In this document: piece after piece, positions 10,785-57,614 of the stretch
Numbering within the stretch: position 1 is the stretch's first letter
Layout: the number at the start of each line of letters is the position of its first letter
From: Fibrobacter sp.
Lineage (GTDB): Bacteria; Fibrobacterota; Fibrobacteria; Fibrobacterales; Fibrobacteraceae
Length of the DNA: 64,000 nt
Assembly: GCA_017412605.1 (NCBI GenBank)
Contig: JAFPWY010000001.1
Coordinates: forward strand, 62,001-126,000
Direction: 5' to 3'
The notes under the pieces: generated by a model
Databases searched by the model: none
What the model saw: the letters and a program-made list of their open reading frames with translations, nothing else
What the model was told of the DNA's origin: nothing
Position numbers and translations under genes: made by a program

Positions 10785-11561
10785 ATGAGACCATCGGAAG
10801 ATACCAGGCAACAGGAAATATTCTGTCAATTTTTGTCAGAGAATGGCGTACAGCTGTCCAAGGAGACAACTGAGCGACTCTACCTGTATGCCGATTTGGT
10901 GGTAGAGACCAAGCAGTTCGGCAACCTGATTTCGCCGAAGGATTCCGAAAAAATTCTCAGCCGCCACATCGCAGACTCGCTGGTTCCCTATATATATATA
11001 GACGAAAGACGAAAGACGAAAGACGAAAGAGGCGAGTGCAATGAAACCGTCCACGAGTTCATTGCCGAGCCGAACAGTCTTGGCGCAAGGCGCAAAGACG
11101 AAGGAACTAAGGAATCTCTTTCGTCTATCGTCTACCAGCGAAGCGATCTTTCGTCTAAAACCTGGGCTGATATGGGTGCGGGCGCGGGCTGCCCGGTTTT
11201 CCCGCTCGCCATCGTGATGCCCGAAATCCAGTTTTACGCGGTCGAACCCCGCAACATGCGCGTGCAGTTCATGAACTACGCCAAGGAAAAGCTCCAACTC
11301 CAGAACCTGACCGTAGTGGGCAAACGCTTCGAGACCTCCGGCCTTTCGGACCTGGACTTTATCAGCTGCCGCGCCCTCTCGACTTTCGAAAACGACTGGG
11401 AACGTGCCCAACCCGGACTCAAGAAGGGCGGAATGTTCCTCACTCTAAAAAGTTTCAACAATATCGTTCACTTGGAAAACGACCCGGCGGTACACATATA
11501 TAAATATGCTCTGCCCCAGGAAGAACAAGTTTACGCCTTAGTCACTCGAGGTAACGAATGA
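10785..11561 (+). CDS. rsmG: 16S rRNA m7G527 methyltransferase RsmG with a repeat-derived insertion
   Basis: Methylates N7 of G527 in 16S rRNA. SAM-fold landmarks are SRHIADSLVPY (residues ~65-75), the glycine-rich loop ADMGAGAGCPVFPL (~129-142), FYAVEPRNMRVQFM, and FISCRALSTFE with the conserved RA. The family usually has about 205-240 residues; this one has 258 because roughly 53 residues (from DERRKTKDERGE to about SSK) sit between the first helix bundle and the glycine loop. That segment is coded by heptanucleotide repeats (11001-11158). The frame stays open, so the protein may fold with a surface loop. It is the first gene of rsmG-parA-parB and overlaps parA by 4 nt. Confidence 0.93.
   Translation: MRPSEDTRQQEIFCQFLSENGVQLSKETTERLYLYADLVVETKQFGNLISPKDSEKILSRHIADSLVPYIYIDERRKTKDERGECNETVHEFIAEPNSLGARRKDEGTKESLSSIVYQRSDLSSKTWADMGAGAGCPVFPLAIVMPEIQFYAVEPRNMRVQFMNYAKEKLQLQNLTVVGKRFETSGLSDLDFISCRALSTFENDWERAQPGLKKGGMFLTLKSFNNIVHLENDPAVHIYKYALPQEEQVYALVTRGNE
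11001..11158. repeat. Heptanucleotide repeat insertion within rsmG
   Basis: Opens with four exact copies of GACGAAA (11001-11028), continues with heptads such as GGCGCAA twice (11082-11095), and ends with inverted heptads in CTTTCGTCTATCGTCT (11118-11133) and CTTTCGTCT (11148-11156). The left and right parts are complementary, so the segment can fold back. It interrupts a conserved gene in frame. Confidence 0.85.
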
Positions 11562-29100: not shown

Positions 29101-29210
29101 TAAGCTATGAGGTGTGAGGTCGCTCCCTTCGGTCGCTTTGAGGTATGAGGTTTCAGATATTTATACTCATCGCTCATAGCTCACGGCTCATTGCTCGCGC
29201 CTCGCTCCTT
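29101..29210. repeat. Intergenic heptad array with opposed arms
   Basis: The left part holds CTATGAGG, TGTGAGG and TATGAGG words around a TCGCTCCCTTCGGTCGCT core. The right part holds six in-phase heptads (29164-29205): TACTCAT, CGCTCAT, AGCTCAC, GGCTCAT, TGCTCGC, GCCTCGC. Left TGAGG words complement right CTCAT words, so the array can fold back. Confidence 0.85.
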
Positions 29211-29241
29211 AAACAAAACGGGCCCGCTTTCGCGAGGCCCG
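29211..29241 (-). terminator. Terminator of dnaN
   Basis: On the minus strand, CGGGCC-TCGC-GAAA-GCG-GGCCCG stem followed by TTTTGTTT, 22 bp after the dnaN stop. Confidence 0.92.
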
Positions 29242-30859: not shown

Positions 30860-31696
30860 GTGAAGAAAATCGAAGTACATGTCTTTTCCAAGGATACCTC
30901 GGGCAGCAGACACTACAAGTTCCCGGTGTGGAAGGTTCTCGTGGGTGTGGTTGCCTGCATTGTCGCTGTCCTGGGCTTTATCCTGTTTTCCCCTGCGCAG
31001 ATTATTGACCGCCTCTCCGACGGGAACGTGGTCGATGTTTACAAGCAAAATTCCTTTATAAAGAAGCAGATCAAGCAAATCCGCGAGAAGGTGGACGAGT
31101 CCATCCTCAAGGCAGAGGAGGCGCGAATCCTGCGTGACAGCACGGTGGTGCTGAGCGGCATGGGATTTTCGCTGGAGAATGCAGGGTCCGACGACGAGAT
31201 GGCCCCGATGGCGAAGGACCGCAAGAGCGTCCTCGAGATTGAGCGTACCATGCGCAAGGCCGTGAAGCTTCTGGAAGCGGATTCGGCGCGTGCGGCGAAC
31301 ATTCCGGTACTGCATCCCATCAAGAATTCCCCGACGGTCAAGAACCGCTTCGAGATGATTTTCGACCAGTTCACACAGCAGAACCTGCCTCACCGCGGCA
31401 TCGACTTTGTCGCGGCCGAAGGCGACACCGTGTTCGCTCCGGGCGGCGGGATTGTCGCCGAGGTCCGTTCACATCGCGGGTTCGGGCTCACGATGAAGAT
31501 TGAGCACACGAAGCGCATACGGACGTTCTATGCCCACCTGGGGTCTGCACTGGTGAAGCCGGGGCAGAGGGTTTCCCGCGGCGACCCGATCGCGCTTATC
31601 GCCGAGAGCGGCCGCGAGTCCAGTGTCGGACTGCATTACGAAGTGCGCGTTGACGGCACTCCGGTGAATCCGGAAAACTTTTTTATAACAAAGTAA
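30860..31696 (+). CDS. Membrane-anchored M23 peptidoglycan endopeptidase (second copy)
   Basis: 278 aa, GTG start. A transmembrane helix (WKVLVGVVACIVAVLGFILF at ~29-48), a coiled-coil stalk (IKKQIKQIREKVDESILKAE) and a LytM domain with HRGIDFVAAEGDTVFAPGGG and the final GLHYEV. The HxxxD and HxH zinc ligands are present, so it should be an active cross-link hydrolase. It shares the layout of the enzyme at 13400-14215, but has a small helical partner upstream in place of a bactofilin downstream. Confidence 0.9.
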   Translation: MKKIEVHVFSKDTSGSRHYKFPVWKVLVGVVACIVAVLGFILFSPAQIIDRLSDGNVVDVYKQNSFIKKQIKQIREKVDESILKAEEARILRDSTVVLSGMGFSLENAGSDDEMAPMAKDRKSVLEIERTMRKAVKLLEADSARAANIPVLHPIKNSPTVKNRFEMIFDQFTQQNLPHRGIDFVAAEGDTVFAPGGGIVAEVRSHRGFGLTMKIEHTKRIRTFYAHLGSALVKPGQRVSRGDPIALIAESGRESSVGLHYEVRVDGTPVNPENFFITK

Positions 31697-31700
31697 CGTA

Positions 31701-31870
31701 ACCTCCGGGCCTCGCGCCTGGAACTTTATATCTCACAATTCACGGCACGCACCCCGCGCCCGGAGCCTCGCACCTCACAGCTCACCGCTCATAGCTCACC
31801 GCTCACTGCTCGTCCCCCGAGCCTGGAGCCTCGAGCCTCTTTTCTCTAGTCTCTAGCCCCTATTCTCTAA
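31701..31870. repeat. Intergenic heptad array, longest in the window
   Basis: Fifteen consecutive in-phase heptads can be read from 31765 to 31869: GCCTCGC, ACCTCAC, AGCTCAC, CGCTCAT, AGCTCAC, CGCTCAC, TGCTCGT, CCCCCGA, GCCTGGA, GCCTCGA, GCCTCTT, TTCTCTA, GTCTCTA, GCCCCTA, TTCTCTA. Most fit NNCTCNN. The first 60 bp hold looser words (ACCTCCGGGCCTCGCGCCTGG). Confidence 0.9.
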
Positions 31871-31879
31871 ATAATATCC

Positions 31880-32028
31880 TTTCGTCTTATTATATTTAAA
31901 GTCCCTAGGTCCGTTGGAGCGGGCGGGCGGTACTTTCCGTCAAGAACCTTCTCGGGCTCGGAGGATCTCCATACTTTTGGTCATCCTCTTAGGGTGCTAT
32001 CAAGTTTTGCTTACTTTTAGGAGTTTTA
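31880..32028 (+). promoter_or_regulatory. Probable structured leader of the RNase G gene
   Basis: About 150 nt without a gene. A TATATT near 31890 could be a -10. A G-rich segment (GGAGCGGGCGGGCGG) and a GAGGAT...ATCCTC stem precede TTTTAGGAG at the ribosome site of rng. RNase E/G leaders in other bacteria mediate autoregulation by the enzyme; that role here is inference. Confidence 0.4.
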
Positions 32029-33564
32029 ATGGCAAATAAGTGTAAGCGCGGAATTTTGATTAGCAAGACACCTTACGAGAAGCGTATCGCCATCATGGAA
32101 GATGGCGAACTTGTAGAGCTAGTTGTTGAAGGTGTCTCGTCTAATCGAGTTCTGGGCAATATATATAAAGGCGTAGTCCAGAAGGTGCTCCCCGCACTCA
32201 AGGCTGCGTTCATCGATATCGGCCTCGAGAAGGCTGGCTTCCTGCACCAGGACGATGCCATGGACAGGAACGAACTCCTCCGCCGCGAATATGGCGACGA
32301 CGATGACGAGGATGGCGTTTCCAAGGACATTTCCATCGACGAACTGCTCAAGGAAGGTCAGGAAATCATGGTCCAGGTTGTGAAGGAACCGATCAGCACC
32401 AAGGGTGCCCGTCTGACGACGCACCTGAGCTTTGCTGGCCGTTTCCTCGTTTGCATGCCCGGCACCAACTTCATCGGCGTCTCGAAGCGCGAACGCGATC
32501 CGGCCAAGCGCCGCGAGTTCAAGAAGGTGGTCCGCCGCCTCAAGGGCCGCGACGTGGGCTACATCGTCCGCACCAACGGCTTGAACGAGTCCGAGTTCGA
32601 GATCAACAAGCAGATGCGCGAGCTCGAGAGCAAGTGGGAACAGACGAAGTACAACTTCGAGACCATGCCCGCCGAGACTTGCATCTACGAGGAGTCCGAC
32701 TCCATCGAGCAGACCGTCCGCGAATACTTCGGTGACAACACGGACTACGTGTACATCGATAACCGCGACGAGTACTTCGCCCTCCGCGAGTACCTCAAGG
32801 TGCTCTCGCCGGACAAGCTCGACAAGGTGAAGCTCTGGAGCAGCAGCGAAAGCCTGTTCGAGTACTTCAAGATCGAGAACGACTATGCGCGCTCCCTGCA
32901 GCGCCAGGTCCCGCTGCCGCGCGGTGGTAACCTCGTGATCGAGCAGACCGAAGCCCTCGTGTCCATCGACGTGAACACCGGACCGAAGGTGCACGGCAAG
33001 GACCAGAGCAAGATCATCCTCGAAACGAACATCGACGCCTGCCACGAAATCGCGAAGCAGCTCCGTCTGCGTGACGTGGGCGGCCTCATCATCATCGACT
33101 TCATCGACATGGAGACCGATGCCGACCGCGAGGCCGTGTACCAGGAATTCCGCAAGGCTATCCGCCGCGACAAGGCGCCTATCAGCCCGGCCCCCATCAG
33201 CCAGTTCGGCCTCATGGAAGTCACCCGCAAGCGCGTCCGCGTGAACCTGATGACCGAGAAGACGGAACGCTGCCCGGTGTGCAACGGTGGTGGACGTATC
33301 GCCACGCTGGAATCCACGCTCGGCATGATCGACCGCTGGATGGCCCGCGCGAAGGCCAAGGGCAAGCTGCGCGAGGTAACGCTCGTGGTGAGCCCCGCCG
33401 TCGTCGACGTGCTCTGCCGCGACCTCAACCGCATGTTCAACTACCTGGAATACAAGCACAACATGAAGATCTCCCTCGTGGAAGACGAAAGTGCGCACGT
33501 GAACCAGTTCTGGATGTACGACAAGAACAACGAGGACATCACGGATCAGTACAACTTCGTGTAG
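32029..33564 (+). CDS. rng: Ribonuclease G/E family endoribonuclease
   Basis: 511-aa RNase G-length protein without the long scaffold tail of RNase E. An S1-like domain (RVLGNIYKGVVQKVLPALKA, AAFIDIGLEKAGFLHQDDAM) is interrupted by a very acidic loop (GDDDDEDG). The catalytic DNase-I-like core contains LVSIDVNTGPKVHG and GGLIIIDFIDMETDADREAV, with the two Mg-binding Asp residues. The Zn-link CPVCNGGGRI follows. It cleaves single-stranded AU-rich RNA in mRNA turnover and 16S 5' maturation. AGGAG precedes the ATG. Confidence 0.95.
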   Translation: MANKCKRGILISKTPYEKRIAIMEDGELVELVVEGVSSNRVLGNIYKGVVQKVLPALKAAFIDIGLEKAGFLHQDDAMDRNELLRREYGDDDDEDGVSKDISIDELLKEGQEIMVQVVKEPISTKGARLTTHLSFAGRFLVCMPGTNFIGVSKRERDPAKRREFKKVVRRLKGRDVGYIVRTNGLNESEFEINKQMRELESKWEQTKYNFETMPAETCIYEESDSIEQTVREYFGDNTDYVYIDNRDEYFALREYLKVLSPDKLDKVKLWSSSESLFEYFKIENDYARSLQRQVPLPRGGNLVIEQTEALVSIDVNTGPKVHGKDQSKIILETNIDACHEIAKQLRLRDVGGLIIIDFIDMETDADREAVYQEFRKAIRRDKAPISPAPISQFGLMEVTRKRVRVNLMTEKTERCPVCNGGGRIATLESTLGMIDRWMARAKAKGKLREVTLVVSPAVVDVLCRDLNRMFNYLEYKHNMKISLVEDESAHVNQFWMYDKNNEDITDQYNFV

Positions 33565-52861: not shown

Positions 52862-52969
52862 GGATTGCTCCTGTTTGTTTGTTCTTAAAATACAAAGTTT
52901 TCTACGAATTTATATTTTTTTTTTGCAAAAGTTTGGTAACTATAAGGAAAAAATGGGGAAATAGCAATG

Positions 52970-53380
52970 AGCTATGAGCGGTGAGCCGTGAGGAGAGAGG
53001 TATTTTTTTTCGTTTTACTACTCATCGCTGACTGCTCAGAGGGGCTTTAGCCCCGACCTCACAGCTCATTATCACGCACTTCGTGCGTCAATATAAGACG
53101 GCGAAGCCGTGATATTTCTCCCTAGTCCCTAGATCCTAACCCCTAGATTCTCTGGCGGAGATTGCTTCAGGACTTCGTCCTTCGCAATGACAAATCCAGC
53201 ATCCCTCATAACCCCTAACCCCTAGATCCTAGATCCTAGCCTCTAAACCTTTATACCTCCTAACTGACGGAGATTGCTTCAGGACTTCGTCCTTCGCAAT
53301 GACAAATTCAGCATCCCTCATAACCCCTAGCCCCTAGATCCTAGATCCTAGATCCTAGCCTCTAATTACTAATTACTATC
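52970..53380. repeat. Compound repeat region: opposed heptad arms, mini-hairpins, tandem REP-like units
   Basis: Starts with TGAGCGG, TGAGCCG, TGAGGAG words and later their complements. Then mini-hairpins ACGCAC-TTC-GTGCGT and ACGGC-GAA-GCCGT. Two near-identical units at 53156-53246 and 53268-53365 each contain a palindrome (ATTGC..AGGAC-TTC-GTCCT..GCAAT) followed by heptads of the type CCCCTAG, ATCCTAG. The first has two ATCCTAG copies, the second three. This explains the whole 530-bp gap; no gene is seen. Confidence 0.9.
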
Positions 53381-53389
53381 TTCCATACT

Positions 53390-55081
53390 ATGAAGGCCCT
53401 TTACCAAAAAATTCGCGCTTTAAACGGAAAAAATTATGGTCTGTACAAGTCCCTCGCCGAAAAATCGTGGGATTTTGGTGACTTTGTTCTAGAATTCCTG
53501 CATGTTCAGGGCGACCCGTTTGCCCCTGCGTCCAGGGTGCTCTTGAAGACAAGTTTGCAAAAGCTCGGGTATGCCCCTGTTTGGGGGAGCAATTTTGAAC
53601 GGCGCCTTGCGCTTTCGGATTTCCTGTTACGCCGACTGAGCGCGGTTGTGCAGGAGCATTTCCCCGAGAAAAATGCGCCCGTGGCCATCGAGAATCCGGG
53701 ACCCGAGATGCTGGTGCGGAACTCCCTGTGGATCGATAACGGCGATTTGCGCGTCTGCTTGCAGGTTCGCCTTCCGGGAGAGGGCCGCAAGATAGAATCG
53801 GAGGCTGCGGCCGAAATTTTGACGATGGTGCTGCCCGACCTCGTGTCGGCGAGCCTGTATAATGATTCGTCGCGGGCGGCGCAACTGGAAGCGCATTACG
53901 GCGTGCTCGCCGACCGCGTCGAGATCCTTGCGGAACTCGACAAACGCAGGCTTTGCGCGTTTGTGCCCGACGGGGCGGTTCTGCCGCGGGCTTCGGGCCT
54001 GAGCGAGGCCCCGCTCAAGGACGCGGTGCCGTTCGTGGCGCCGCCGGAAATGGCGGTGACACTTGAAATTTGTGGCCGCGAAATTCGCGGCATGGGCATC
54101 CCCAGGGGAGTCACCGTCATTACGGGCGGTGCCTTCCACGGAAAGTCGACGCTGCTGCAAGCGCTCACGCGCTCGGTATTCCCGCATGTGCCGGGTGACG
54201 GCCGCGAGGGAATCGTCGTGGACGAAACCGCCCTGCGCGTCGGCGTCGAGGACGGGCGCAGTGTGCGCGCTACCGACCTCTCGATATTCGTGCGCGACCT
54301 TCCGGGTGGCGTGAGCACCAAGGATTTTACCACGCTTTCGGCATCGGGCTCCACGAGCGAGGCCGCGAACCTGCTCGAAGCCATCGAGGCGGGCTCGCGG
54401 ACGTTCCTCATCGACGAGGATTCCTCGGCGGTGAACTTCCTCATCCGCGACATCCGCGTCCGCAAGCTCCTGGGCGACGACCGCGAACCCCTGATACCGC
54501 TGACCGACCGCATCCGCGCCATTGCGCAGGCGGGTTACAGCTTTATCTTGGTGGCGGGCGCCTGCGGCGACTACCTCGACCTCGCGGACAACATTATTAT
54601 AATGGCGAACTACAAGGCCGAATGCGCCAAGTCCACTAAACCGGTGGAATCCGCCGAAGTGGGTTCTTCCGAAGCAAGTTTCGCGCCGCCCGCGCCCCGC
54701 GCCTTCGCCGACTACATGCAGCCCCTGCAAAAATCCGTGCGCCCCGCCTCTGCCGTGGAACGCCAGGTCAAGGTGAAGCTTGCCGGAGATTCCCTGCTGC
54801 AAATCGGCTTCCTTGTATCAGACACCTCGCGCCTCAACACGCTGGTGGATAAGTCGCAGCGCTTGGGTGCCGGTTTTTTGCTTTTGAACCTGTTGCAGAA
54901 CGCGGCGAGCAACGCCGACAGCATGGCAAGCGATTCTGTGTCGGCTGCTTCAAGCAAGCTGTGCGAAAGCATCCGCAACGTCGGGTTCCGCAACCTGCCA
55001 CAGGGCCTGAGCCGTGAAATGAGCCTGCCGCGAGAAGTGGACATCGCCTGCGTTGCCTTCCGCCTCCGCGAAGGCCGCTAA
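53390..55081 (+). CDS. ABC-class ATPase (COG3044)
   Basis: 563-aa soluble ATPase. Walker A is in VTVITGGAFHGKSTLLQALT (~247-266), preceded by the N-terminal domain typical of this family (NGKNYGLYKSLAEKSWDFGD). Also TLSASGSTSEAANLLEAIEA as the signature-like segment, TFLIDEDSSAVNFLIRD (Walker B plus Asp) and FILVAGACGDYLDLADNIII. Members such as trypanosome MRB1590 bind RNA; the bacterial role is not known. Starts straight after the repeat region. Confidence 0.85.
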   Translation: MKALYQKIRALNGKNYGLYKSLAEKSWDFGDFVLEFLHVQGDPFAPASRVLLKTSLQKLGYAPVWGSNFERRLALSDFLLRRLSAVVQEHFPEKNAPVAIENPGPEMLVRNSLWIDNGDLRVCLQVRLPGEGRKIESEAAAEILTMVLPDLVSASLYNDSSRAAQLEAHYGVLADRVEILAELDKRRLCAFVPDGAVLPRASGLSEAPLKDAVPFVAPPEMAVTLEICGREIRGMGIPRGVTVITGGAFHGKSTLLQALTRSVFPHVPGDGREGIVVDETALRVGVEDGRSVRATDLSIFVRDLPGGVSTKDFTTLSASGSTSEAANLLEAIEAGSRTFLIDEDSSAVNFLIRDIRVRKLLGDDREPLIPLTDRIRAIAQAGYSFILVAGACGDYLDLADNIIIMANYKAECAKSTKPVESAEVGSSEASFAPPAPRAFADYMQPLQKSVRPASAVERQVKVKLAGDSLLQIGFLVSDTSRLNTLVDKSQRLGAGFLLLNLLQNAASNADSMASDSVSAASSKLCESIRNVGFRNLPQGLSREMSLPREVDIACVAFRLREGR

Positions 55082-56941: not shown

Positions 56942-57502
56942 ATGCGCAAAAATCTCGGAGTCAAGACTTACCTTTACCCGCAGCCGACGCTCGTCATCGC
57001 GACATACAACGAAGACGGCACCCCGAACGCGATGGTGGCCGCTTGGGGCAGCGTCAGCGATACGAACCAGATTGCTATCTACGTAGCCAAGAGCCACAAG
57101 ACCATGCCGAACATCCTTGCCCGCAAGGCCTTCACCGTGAGCATGGCGACGGCGAAGAACATCAAGGCTATTGACTACCTGGGTGTCACCAGCGGCAACA
57201 AGGTCGCGGACAAGTTTGCAAAGTCGGGCCTCACCGCCGTCAAGAGCGAAAACGTGGATGCCCCGCTGATTGCCGAACTCCCGCTCGCGCTGGAATGCAA
57301 GATGGTGAGCTACGACGACGAATCCGAACTTTTGCTCGGCGAAATCGTGAACGTGACCGCCGACGAATCCGTGCTGGACAGCGACGGCAAGCTCTCCGTC
57401 GAAAAGCTTGCGCCGGTGTGCTACGACACCGCAGGGCACGGCTACTATGTGATGGAACGCCGAGTCGGCAACGCCTTCAGCGACGGGAAAGAAATTAAAT
57501 AG
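56942..57502 (+). CDS. Flavin reductase family protein
   Basis: 186-aa FMN-binding split barrel. QPTLVIATYNEDGTPNAMVA, AAWGSVSDTNQIAIYVAKSH and TMPNILARKAFTVSMATAKN match the flavin reductase-like/FlaRed family; LVTSGNKVADKF-type loops follow. Reduces flavin with NAD(P)H or binds flavin. ATG after GGAG. Followed immediately by a heptad array. Confidence 0.88.
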   Translation: MRKNLGVKTYLYPQPTLVIATYNEDGTPNAMVAAWGSVSDTNQIAIYVAKSHKTMPNILARKAFTVSMATAKNIKAIDYLGVTSGNKVADKFAKSGLTAVKSENVDAPLIAELPLALECKMVSYDDESELLLGEIVNVTADESVLDSDGKLSVEKLAPVCYDTAGHGYYVMERRVGNAFSDGKEIK

Positions 57503-57601
57503 CGGTGAGCAATGAGCGGTGAGCAGTGAGCAATGAGAGATGAATCTACTCATAGCTCAGGGCTCAATGCTCATAGCTCATACCTGACACCTCATCGCTG
57601 A
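57501..57601. repeat. Intergenic heptad array with two opposed arms
   Basis: Left arm about six heptads TGAGCAA, TGAGCGG, TGAGCAG, TGAGCAA, TGAGAGA, TGAATCT; right arm ACTCATA, GCTCAGG, GCTCAAT, GCTCATA, GCTCATA, CCTGACA, CCTCATC. Arms are roughly reverse complements, so RNA or single-stranded DNA could form a long imperfect hairpin between the two genes. Confidence 0.9.
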
Positions 57602-57614
57602 AACGGAGTATCCT

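Follow-up and report, generated by a model that had tools for sequence, protein, structure and literature searches.

What are the seven-base repeats that fill several gaps between genes in this stretch of a Fibrobacter genome, and how did they come to lie there? The window, by which we mean the whole 64-kb stretch analysed (G000:C2:62001-126000, from the host genome G000 of 3.53 Mb), had been described in an initial annotation as carrying arrays of a clear seven-base period in the gaps 29101-29210, 31701-31870, 52970-53380 and 57501-57601. Self-match at lag 7, computed over the entire window in 105-nt windows, reaches 0.69 at 31694-31895, 0.62 at 53263-53413 and 0.60 at 57478-57611; all three strong places are gaps named in that annotation, and among periods 2-30 only 14 and 21 peak besides 7, at the same places. 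The arrays at 31701-31870 and 57501-57601 stand as described. The other two gaps, also said to be filled with heptads, do contain them, but 29101-29210 is weaker, a hairpin flanked by two short arms (TRF gives the unit CTCATAG at 29166-29196), and 52970-53380 mixes heptad blocks with palindromes instead of forming a solid array. Read along the sequence, the arrays of the window are blocks of GCTCANN (or its complement), CCTAGNN, CCTCGNR and TCGTCTY interspersed with small palindromes, and the heptads claimed at 31765-31869 are real, their word switching from GCTCANN to CCTCGNR to CTAGNNY. An array within a gene is equally real, lying in frame in an rsmG-like ORF that we take to encode a 16S rRNA methyltransferase. 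The parts are the following (where a line names no other evidence, the feature was read from the letters themselves):

10984..11050, + strand: in-frame AGACGAA heptad array in the rsmG-like ORF 10785-11561 (TRF 11000-11030, 100% match; the frame is open both here and in G079, whose insert is a different one).
29101..29215, no strand: class-A unit with left G-rich arms (TGAGNNN), hairpin GGTCGCTCCCTTCGGTCGC and right C-rich arm (NNGCTCA); inverted repeat 29103-29118/29166-29181.
31694..31895, + strand: heptad array, C-rich on the + strand, with the 0.69 lag-7 match; starts just 3' of the stop of ORF 30860-31696.
Within 31694..31895, + strand: serial word blocks GCTCANN (about 31768-31811), CCTCGNR (about 31818-31839) and CTAGNNY (about 31843-31869); TRF rows 31774-31811, 31818-31839 and 31843-31869.
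52965..53040, no strand: class-A unit, left arm of five AGCNNTG heptads, right arm ACTCATC GCTGACT GCTCAGA (RNA fold z -4.8, 52960-53090).
53041..53054, no strand: hairpin GGGGCTTTAGCCCC, one stem type of the module CTCARAG-stem-loop-CGACCTC (from comparison of the module family).
53074..53110, no strand: two mini-hairpins, ACGCAC-TTC-GTGCGT (53074-53088) and ACGGC-GAA-GCCGT (53098-53110); both modules recur in orthologous gaps.
53120..53149, + strand: class-B heptads, CCTAGNN type.
53156..53192, no strand: palindromic module CGGAGATTGCTTCAGGACTTCGTCCTTCGCAATGACA, copy 1; relatives carry a two-sided GGACTTCGTCC/GGGCTTCGCCC change.
53209..53249, + strand: class-B heptad block with the words CCCTAAC/CCTAGAT (TRF 53209-53239; core triplet CCTAG at G000:C2:115221).
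53268..53304, no strand: palindromic module, copy 2.
53322..53378, + strand: class-B heptads, then CTAATTA heptads, the last of them about 12 nt upstream of the ATG at 53390 (lag-7 peak 53263-53413; TRF 53325-53358 and 53362-53378).
57501..57604, no strand: class-A unit of six G-rich heptads directly after the stop codon 57500-57502, a short loop and eight C-rich heptads (RNA fold z -6.3; the gaps of five relatives are shorter).

Both palindrome copies (53156-53192 and 53268-53304) contain the words GATTGC...GCAATGAC. Beside the array at 31694..31895, the Rfam family RF02983 (Fibrobacter-1 RNA) matches 31893-31994 on the + strand with 88.9 bits; it begins about 20 nt past the heptad array and precedes ORF 32029-33564. 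The RF02983 region is matched across the genus, several relatives having a second, weaker match close by.

The observation of period-7 arrays is confirmed and genome-wide, and a chance origin is excluded by reversed-pattern and block-shuffle controls. The enrichment that the initial annotation had proposed to look for is present: the pattern GCTCANNGCTCANNGCTCA, with at most one mismatch, matches the host genome 308 times against 0 for the same pattern read backwards, and exact GCTCA core triplets number 145. A contiguous 360-kb sample holds 14 period-7 clusters (70 nt, 60% match) where block shuffles hold none; with 50-nt windows there are 24, against 0-2 at other periods below 14 outside multiples of 3, and period 7 is the only short period outside these multiples to be clearly enriched. 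For four cores, word pairs at lag 7 number 141, 68, 46 and 24, and lags 5, 6, 8, 9, 10 and 12 give 0-14. The recurrence of the same words in many gaps, as claimed, is supported. The arrays are dispersed and mainly between genes (27 of 34 in the G000 samples); they occur in all kinds of gap and also in frame within genes.

The unit combines an exact period with a degenerate sequence, again as first described. We analysed 24 class-A arrays of 4-12 heptads from 464 kb and pooled their 110 interior heptads, a core-versus-variable test per array (9 of 66 below p 0.05) having been replaced because each array has too few heptads. Positions 1-5 of the interior heptads are G (92%), C (100%), T (99%), C (98%) and A (99%), position 6 is T (49%) or C (45%) and position 7 T, C or A. 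Position 1 departs from the core 9 times and positions 2-5 0-2 times each, and positions 6-7 are near-free; visible core variation is capped here, since array detection started from GCTCA seeds and tolerated no more than one core mismatch in each heptad added, but middle heptads free of this constraint, with 2 deviations in 175 core cells, are consistent with the same fixity. The C strand of class-A arrays is poor in G. Neighbouring heptads are no more alike than random draws from the array or than distant units (7 identical adjacent heptads vs 8.1 expected). Simple slippage was rejected because neighbours are not alike. As the annotation had stated, the arrays are no ordinary microsatellites; nor are they CRISPRs, which have identical repeats of at least 23 nt, unique spacers and cas genes, whereas the unit here is 7 nt without spacers. 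Two heptads apart, identity is in weak excess (13 vs 7.0, p = 0.013), and one relative (G079) carries a run of GCTCGTTGCTCATT x4, a recent 14-nt expansion. Since likeness exceeds chance at lag 2 and not between adjacent heptads, duplications of 14 nt do take place without being the dominant event. Stretches of at least two identical heptads that recur at different loci (43 vs 27.8 expected) suggest some copying between arrays.

These figures bear on two readings. The one that we consider most likely, and favour tentatively, is that the dispersed degenerate heptamer family is non-essential filler DNA that turns over fast and has no obligate function; the 14-nt expansions and the heptad runs identical between loci speak for it. 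Neutral slippage, however, would be expected to make neighbours alike and to allow drift at every one of the seven positions, whereas adjacent heptads are no more alike than random ones and changes are concentrated at two heptad positions. A fixed core followed by nearly free YH positions, with no similarity between neighbours, would fit a trans-acting writer, that is, an enzyme with an RNA or protein template adding heptads to DNA 3' ends, with about five bases specified and two loose, so that the dialect of a genome would be its template. We regard this as unlikely; in its favour, bacterial reverse transcriptases making tandem-repeat DNA exist (DRT10, PMC12632851).

Which words are used depends on the genome. 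The sampled members of the genus have period-7 arrays too, with other favoured words: exact CTACTNN triplets number 203 in G076, 197 in G118 and 185 in G098 and 4 in the host, ACTAANN triplets 110 in G076, 54 in G067 and 1 in the host, and CCTAGNN triplets 57 in G066, 32 in the host and 0 in most genomes. Exact GCTCA triplets occur in 30 of 168 genomes of the phylum, with a range of 0-145 in one genus. As counts differ genome by genome, the word is largely a property of the genome and not of the locus. At the 52966 locus, the left arm of the class-A unit has five heptads common to four species (the same number in G079, G110 and G118), with changes mostly at the variable positions, and G119 has another word there with unchanged polarity. 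Genome-level dialects, and another word at the same place and polarity, are what a species-specific template would produce, and one word class at scores of loci, swapped in sister species, asks for a trans-acting agent and sits poorly with mere turnover. The variable pair argues the other way in several classes: GCTCA is followed by nearly free positions (C or T, then A, C or T), but CTACT almost solely by GT, TC or GC and CCTAG mostly by CC or AT, alike in several species, as if ready-made words had been shuffled and not written. Reversed-word controls give almost no matches in all but a few genomes; one of these few, G088 of the same genus, has high counts (e.g. 41 and 26 for reversed CTACT), which is another heptad dialect.

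The arrays are also oriented with respect to genes. Among 127 intergenic arrays, those lying in the left half of their gap are G-rich on the + strand in 51 cases vs 11 and those lying in the right half C-rich in 49 vs 16 (Fisher p 5e-11, an optimistic value because genes were called with our own hexamer ORF caller and the relatives are not independent). The direction is consistent across all array-rich samples, 96 of 122 arrays obey the rule once identical sequences are removed, and it appears in convergent (21:2), divergent (30:3) and co-directional (49:22) gaps. A composition artefact was rejected, as gaps without arrays have no skew (182 vs 240) and gaps with arrays do (59 vs 11). The median distance from an array to the nearest coding sequence is 3 nt. 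Reading away from the gene, one finds the G-rich strand in 68:10 arrays closer than 30 nt, in 19:8 of those 30-100 nt away and in 9:8 of those more than 100 nt away. Class-A arms at most 120 nt apart are always convergent, with the order TGAG...CTCA and the G-rich strand inward (23:0); neighbouring runs in Fibrobacter show the G-to-C order in 23:1. In co-directional gaps, the C-rich strand is sense 18 times and antisense 15 times. A strand-specific RNA role, such as a simple rut or leader, was rejected on these last counts, and its border-oriented version was kept.

This border-oriented version would make the arrays functional insulators, stopping antisense or read-through transcription at gene borders or protecting mRNA ends: the C-rich, G-poor arm would leave transcripts that enter a gene from outside unstructured, with regularly spaced YC as a good putative Rho loading site, and paired arms would form hairpins. 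The border polarity in convergent and divergent gaps, strongest below 30 nt, and the G-poor C strand favour such a role, which we nevertheless consider improbable. Against it, some words (ACTAATA) have no YC and the left and right arms are often of different words and so cannot pair. The polarity weighs differently on the other readings. Its confinement to the neighbourhood of coding sequences and the lack of a fixed strand relative to transcription fit fast-turnover filler, yet the 23:0 convergence of class-A arms is more regular than a tolerance filter would give. For templated addition, inward G-rich arms could be the product of joining two extended 3' ends, by analogy with head-to-head telomere fusions, and the G-to-C run order (23:1 in Fibrobacter, 15:2 in other phyla with the seed arrays masked) agrees with this; the fading of polarity with distance from genes does not. 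Ku was absent from all 80 genus genomes searched, so Ku-dependent end joining cannot supply the fusion, and Ku-dependent fusion of extended ends was rejected. Turnover accounts poorly for a core that stays fixed beside loose positions, for the dialects and for an arm order without exceptions, and for this reason we keep a trans-acting writer as a serious rival. The broader form of this idea, in which a trans-acting process writes heptamer words into gene borders, G-rich strand inward and two bases unspecified, with a species-specific template giving the dialect, is in our judgement distinctly unlikely.

Small hairpins accompany the arms. The module CTCARAG-stem-loop-CGACCTC occurs beside arms with about eight different stems and loops that are often GAA, GTA, GCA or TTC. 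When five versions are aligned, every stem cell is paired and both sides change at 3 of 5 pairs, a covariation score reached by 0 of 500 shuffles, the alignment being of only five distinct rows picked for equal length. The relatives' version of the longer palindrome, with GGGCTTCGCCC replacing GGACTTCGTCC, is likewise a two-sided change that keeps the stem. As RNA, 57500-57610 (z -6.3) and 52960-53090 (z -4.8) fold strongly, and two other folded arrays of the window have no significant fold (29100, z -1.4; 31740, z -1.8); the covarying stems and strong folds favour insulation and the unfolded arrays count against it. The palindromes also raise the prospect of non-autonomous mobile elements of REP/MITE type, which a transposase, Y1 (RAYT) or another, would mobilise and whose end repeats would be the heptad arms. 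REP/BIME elements with RAYT transposases are similarly small paired intergenic palindromes near gene ends; here, GTAG lies beside one hairpin type and modules are gained and lost at orthologous places. The Fibrobacter units differ, however, in having heptad arms with ends that vary in word class and length, no target-site duplication was seen, and PF01797 has 0 matches in the array-rich host (27 of 80 relatives have one). RAYT mobility was rejected because the host genome has no PF01797, and the mobile-element reading, weakened by this, appears to us very doubtful.

Comparison of orthologous gaps in G071, G079, G080, G110, G118 and G119, whose flanks are about 82-97% identical, shows the same kinds of module in other combinations. 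Identical lengths in relatives, which would have spoken against the initial annotation, are not found: the gap at 57500 measures 82, 89, 89, 89 and 103 nt in five relatives, in steps of 7 and 14, and 167 in the host, where the gene end is different. Genes are affected as well. The rsmG-like gene of G079 has another insert at the same place as the in-frame heptads of the host, and a gene that we presume to be siroheme-synthase-like (G000:C1:130584-131501, L056) has variable in-frame inserts at two places, and at each of them the repeat mosaic differs among four species. Rickettsia palindromic elements are likewise repeats tolerated in frame within coding genes; the Fibrobacter inserts differ in being heptad arrays or mosaics that change between species at the same codon position. 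At the place of a further host array (G000:C1:126078), G079:C69 47467-48903 has no array but a gene of about 1.2 kb, which by our own reading resembles a B12-binding radical SAM protein.

The arrays comprise a few word classes with a nearly fixed core and 1-3 variable positions, flush with coding sequences, mostly intergenic and occasionally in frame; in the main class, the arms are turned towards each other so that their G-rich strands point inward, and covarying mini-hairpins often lie between these arms or next to them; dialects are genome-wide, and orthologous gaps hold different module sets and lengths that sometimes differ by exactly 7 or 14 nt. Convergent polarity, arm-side hairpins, species dialects and module turnover had escaped the initial annotation, whose overall interpretation is partly supported. 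For fast-turnover filler, the module turnover at orthologous places, the 7- and 14-nt steps, the presence of arrays in every kind of gap and in frame, with an insert differing per species, and similar arrays in genomes of other phyla are all favourable; such free sequence exchange among relatives is not expected of a conserved insulating function. In the turnover model, arrays would grow and shrink in a 7-nt register by slippage or unequal exchange, heptads would be duplicated and shuffled, and whole modules may spread as copies to other loci, with hairpin-aided template switching as the probable route. Selection would act as a filter at gene borders only, orientation being set by what the gene tolerates: the stop-rich G strand after a gene and the G-poor, unstructured strand before a start codon. 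With dozens of sequenced Fibrobacter species carrying arrays at the same places with different words, creation, spread and direction are directly testable, and the genus is well suited to studying how seven-base repeats arise in bacteria and whether they have any effect.

No report of such arrays in Fibrobacter was found in the open-licence literature searched, in line with the annotation's statement. The STRRs of heterocystous cyanobacteria, which it had named as the nearest analogue, are near-perfect repeats of few words; the analogy is fair, as tandem heptanucleotides are dispersed in both, but Fibrobacter copies are heterogeneous and a closer precedent exists. PMC4679880 and PMC4692102 both cite reports that heptamers are the most frequent of the long simple repeats in many bacterial genomes, and PMC4692102 also cites Calothrix, with three repeated heptanucleotides. 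Like the Fibrobacter arrays, the TAACTGA repeats of Beggiatoaceae, cyanobacteria and Bacteroidetes (PMC4679880) are intergenic heptamer direct repeats at many loci. They differ in that a single fixed word is used; in the Beggiatoaceae genome examined there, each set has 2-6 copies, most sets lie ahead of start codons in one orientation, and an inverted repeat occurs in 1 of 170 sets. The precedent is the heterogeneous arrays of Xanthomonas and Nostoc (GGGAATC / GGGGA(C/T)T, degenerate unit (GGGANTN)n; PMC4692102): two Xanthomonas genomes hold 186 and 183 GGGAATC arrays, mostly intergenic, with 70-75 convergent pairs and the G-rich strand downstream-coding or upstream-non-coding, and no role was identified. 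The exact 7-nt period, heterogeneous unit, dispersed and mainly intergenic location, G-rich strand outward from the ORF and convergent pairs all recur in Fibrobacter; as the grammar matches, the kind is already known, and we judge the Fibrobacter arrays to be an extreme multi-word form of it. New here are words without G-tracts, several classes per genome, within-genus dialects, distance-dependent polarity, covarying mini-hairpins in palindrome mosaics and turnover between orthologues. The G-quadruplex explanation proposed for Xanthomonas and Nostoc would extend to Fibrobacter through these shared features, but GCTCAYH, CTACTKY and ACTAAYN contain no GGG or longer G run within the unit, whichever strand is read, and most arrays therefore cannot form quadruplexes. 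For most arrays this reading is refuted, and we give it almost no chance; the missing G-tracts remove the explanation of the best-studied case, yet the polarity stays the same.

Beyond the phylum, a scan of 84,980 genomes found at least 117 stretches of four consecutive GCTCAYN heptads in many phyla. Many of these are nearly monomorphic, with period-7 arrays of other words around them, and the genomes reached through GCTCAYN loci have up to 327 core triplets; in G168 and G180 reversed-control counts are comparable or higher, so not every word is special there. The same features are found in an uncultured Fibrobacter contig (L188), which, like the Fibrobacter-1 RNA beside the array, agrees with the genus name Fibrobacter. 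If writing did prove true, a grammar common to Fibrobacterota, Chloroflexi, Acidobacteriota and cyanobacteria would mean a general, unrecognised bacterial DNA-writing activity. With the seed arrays masked, opposite neighbouring runs in other phyla are G-rich then C-rich in 15 of 17 cases, and the cross-phylum polarity rule rests mainly on this pair order, because half-gap polarity is weaker there (32:17, p 0.02).
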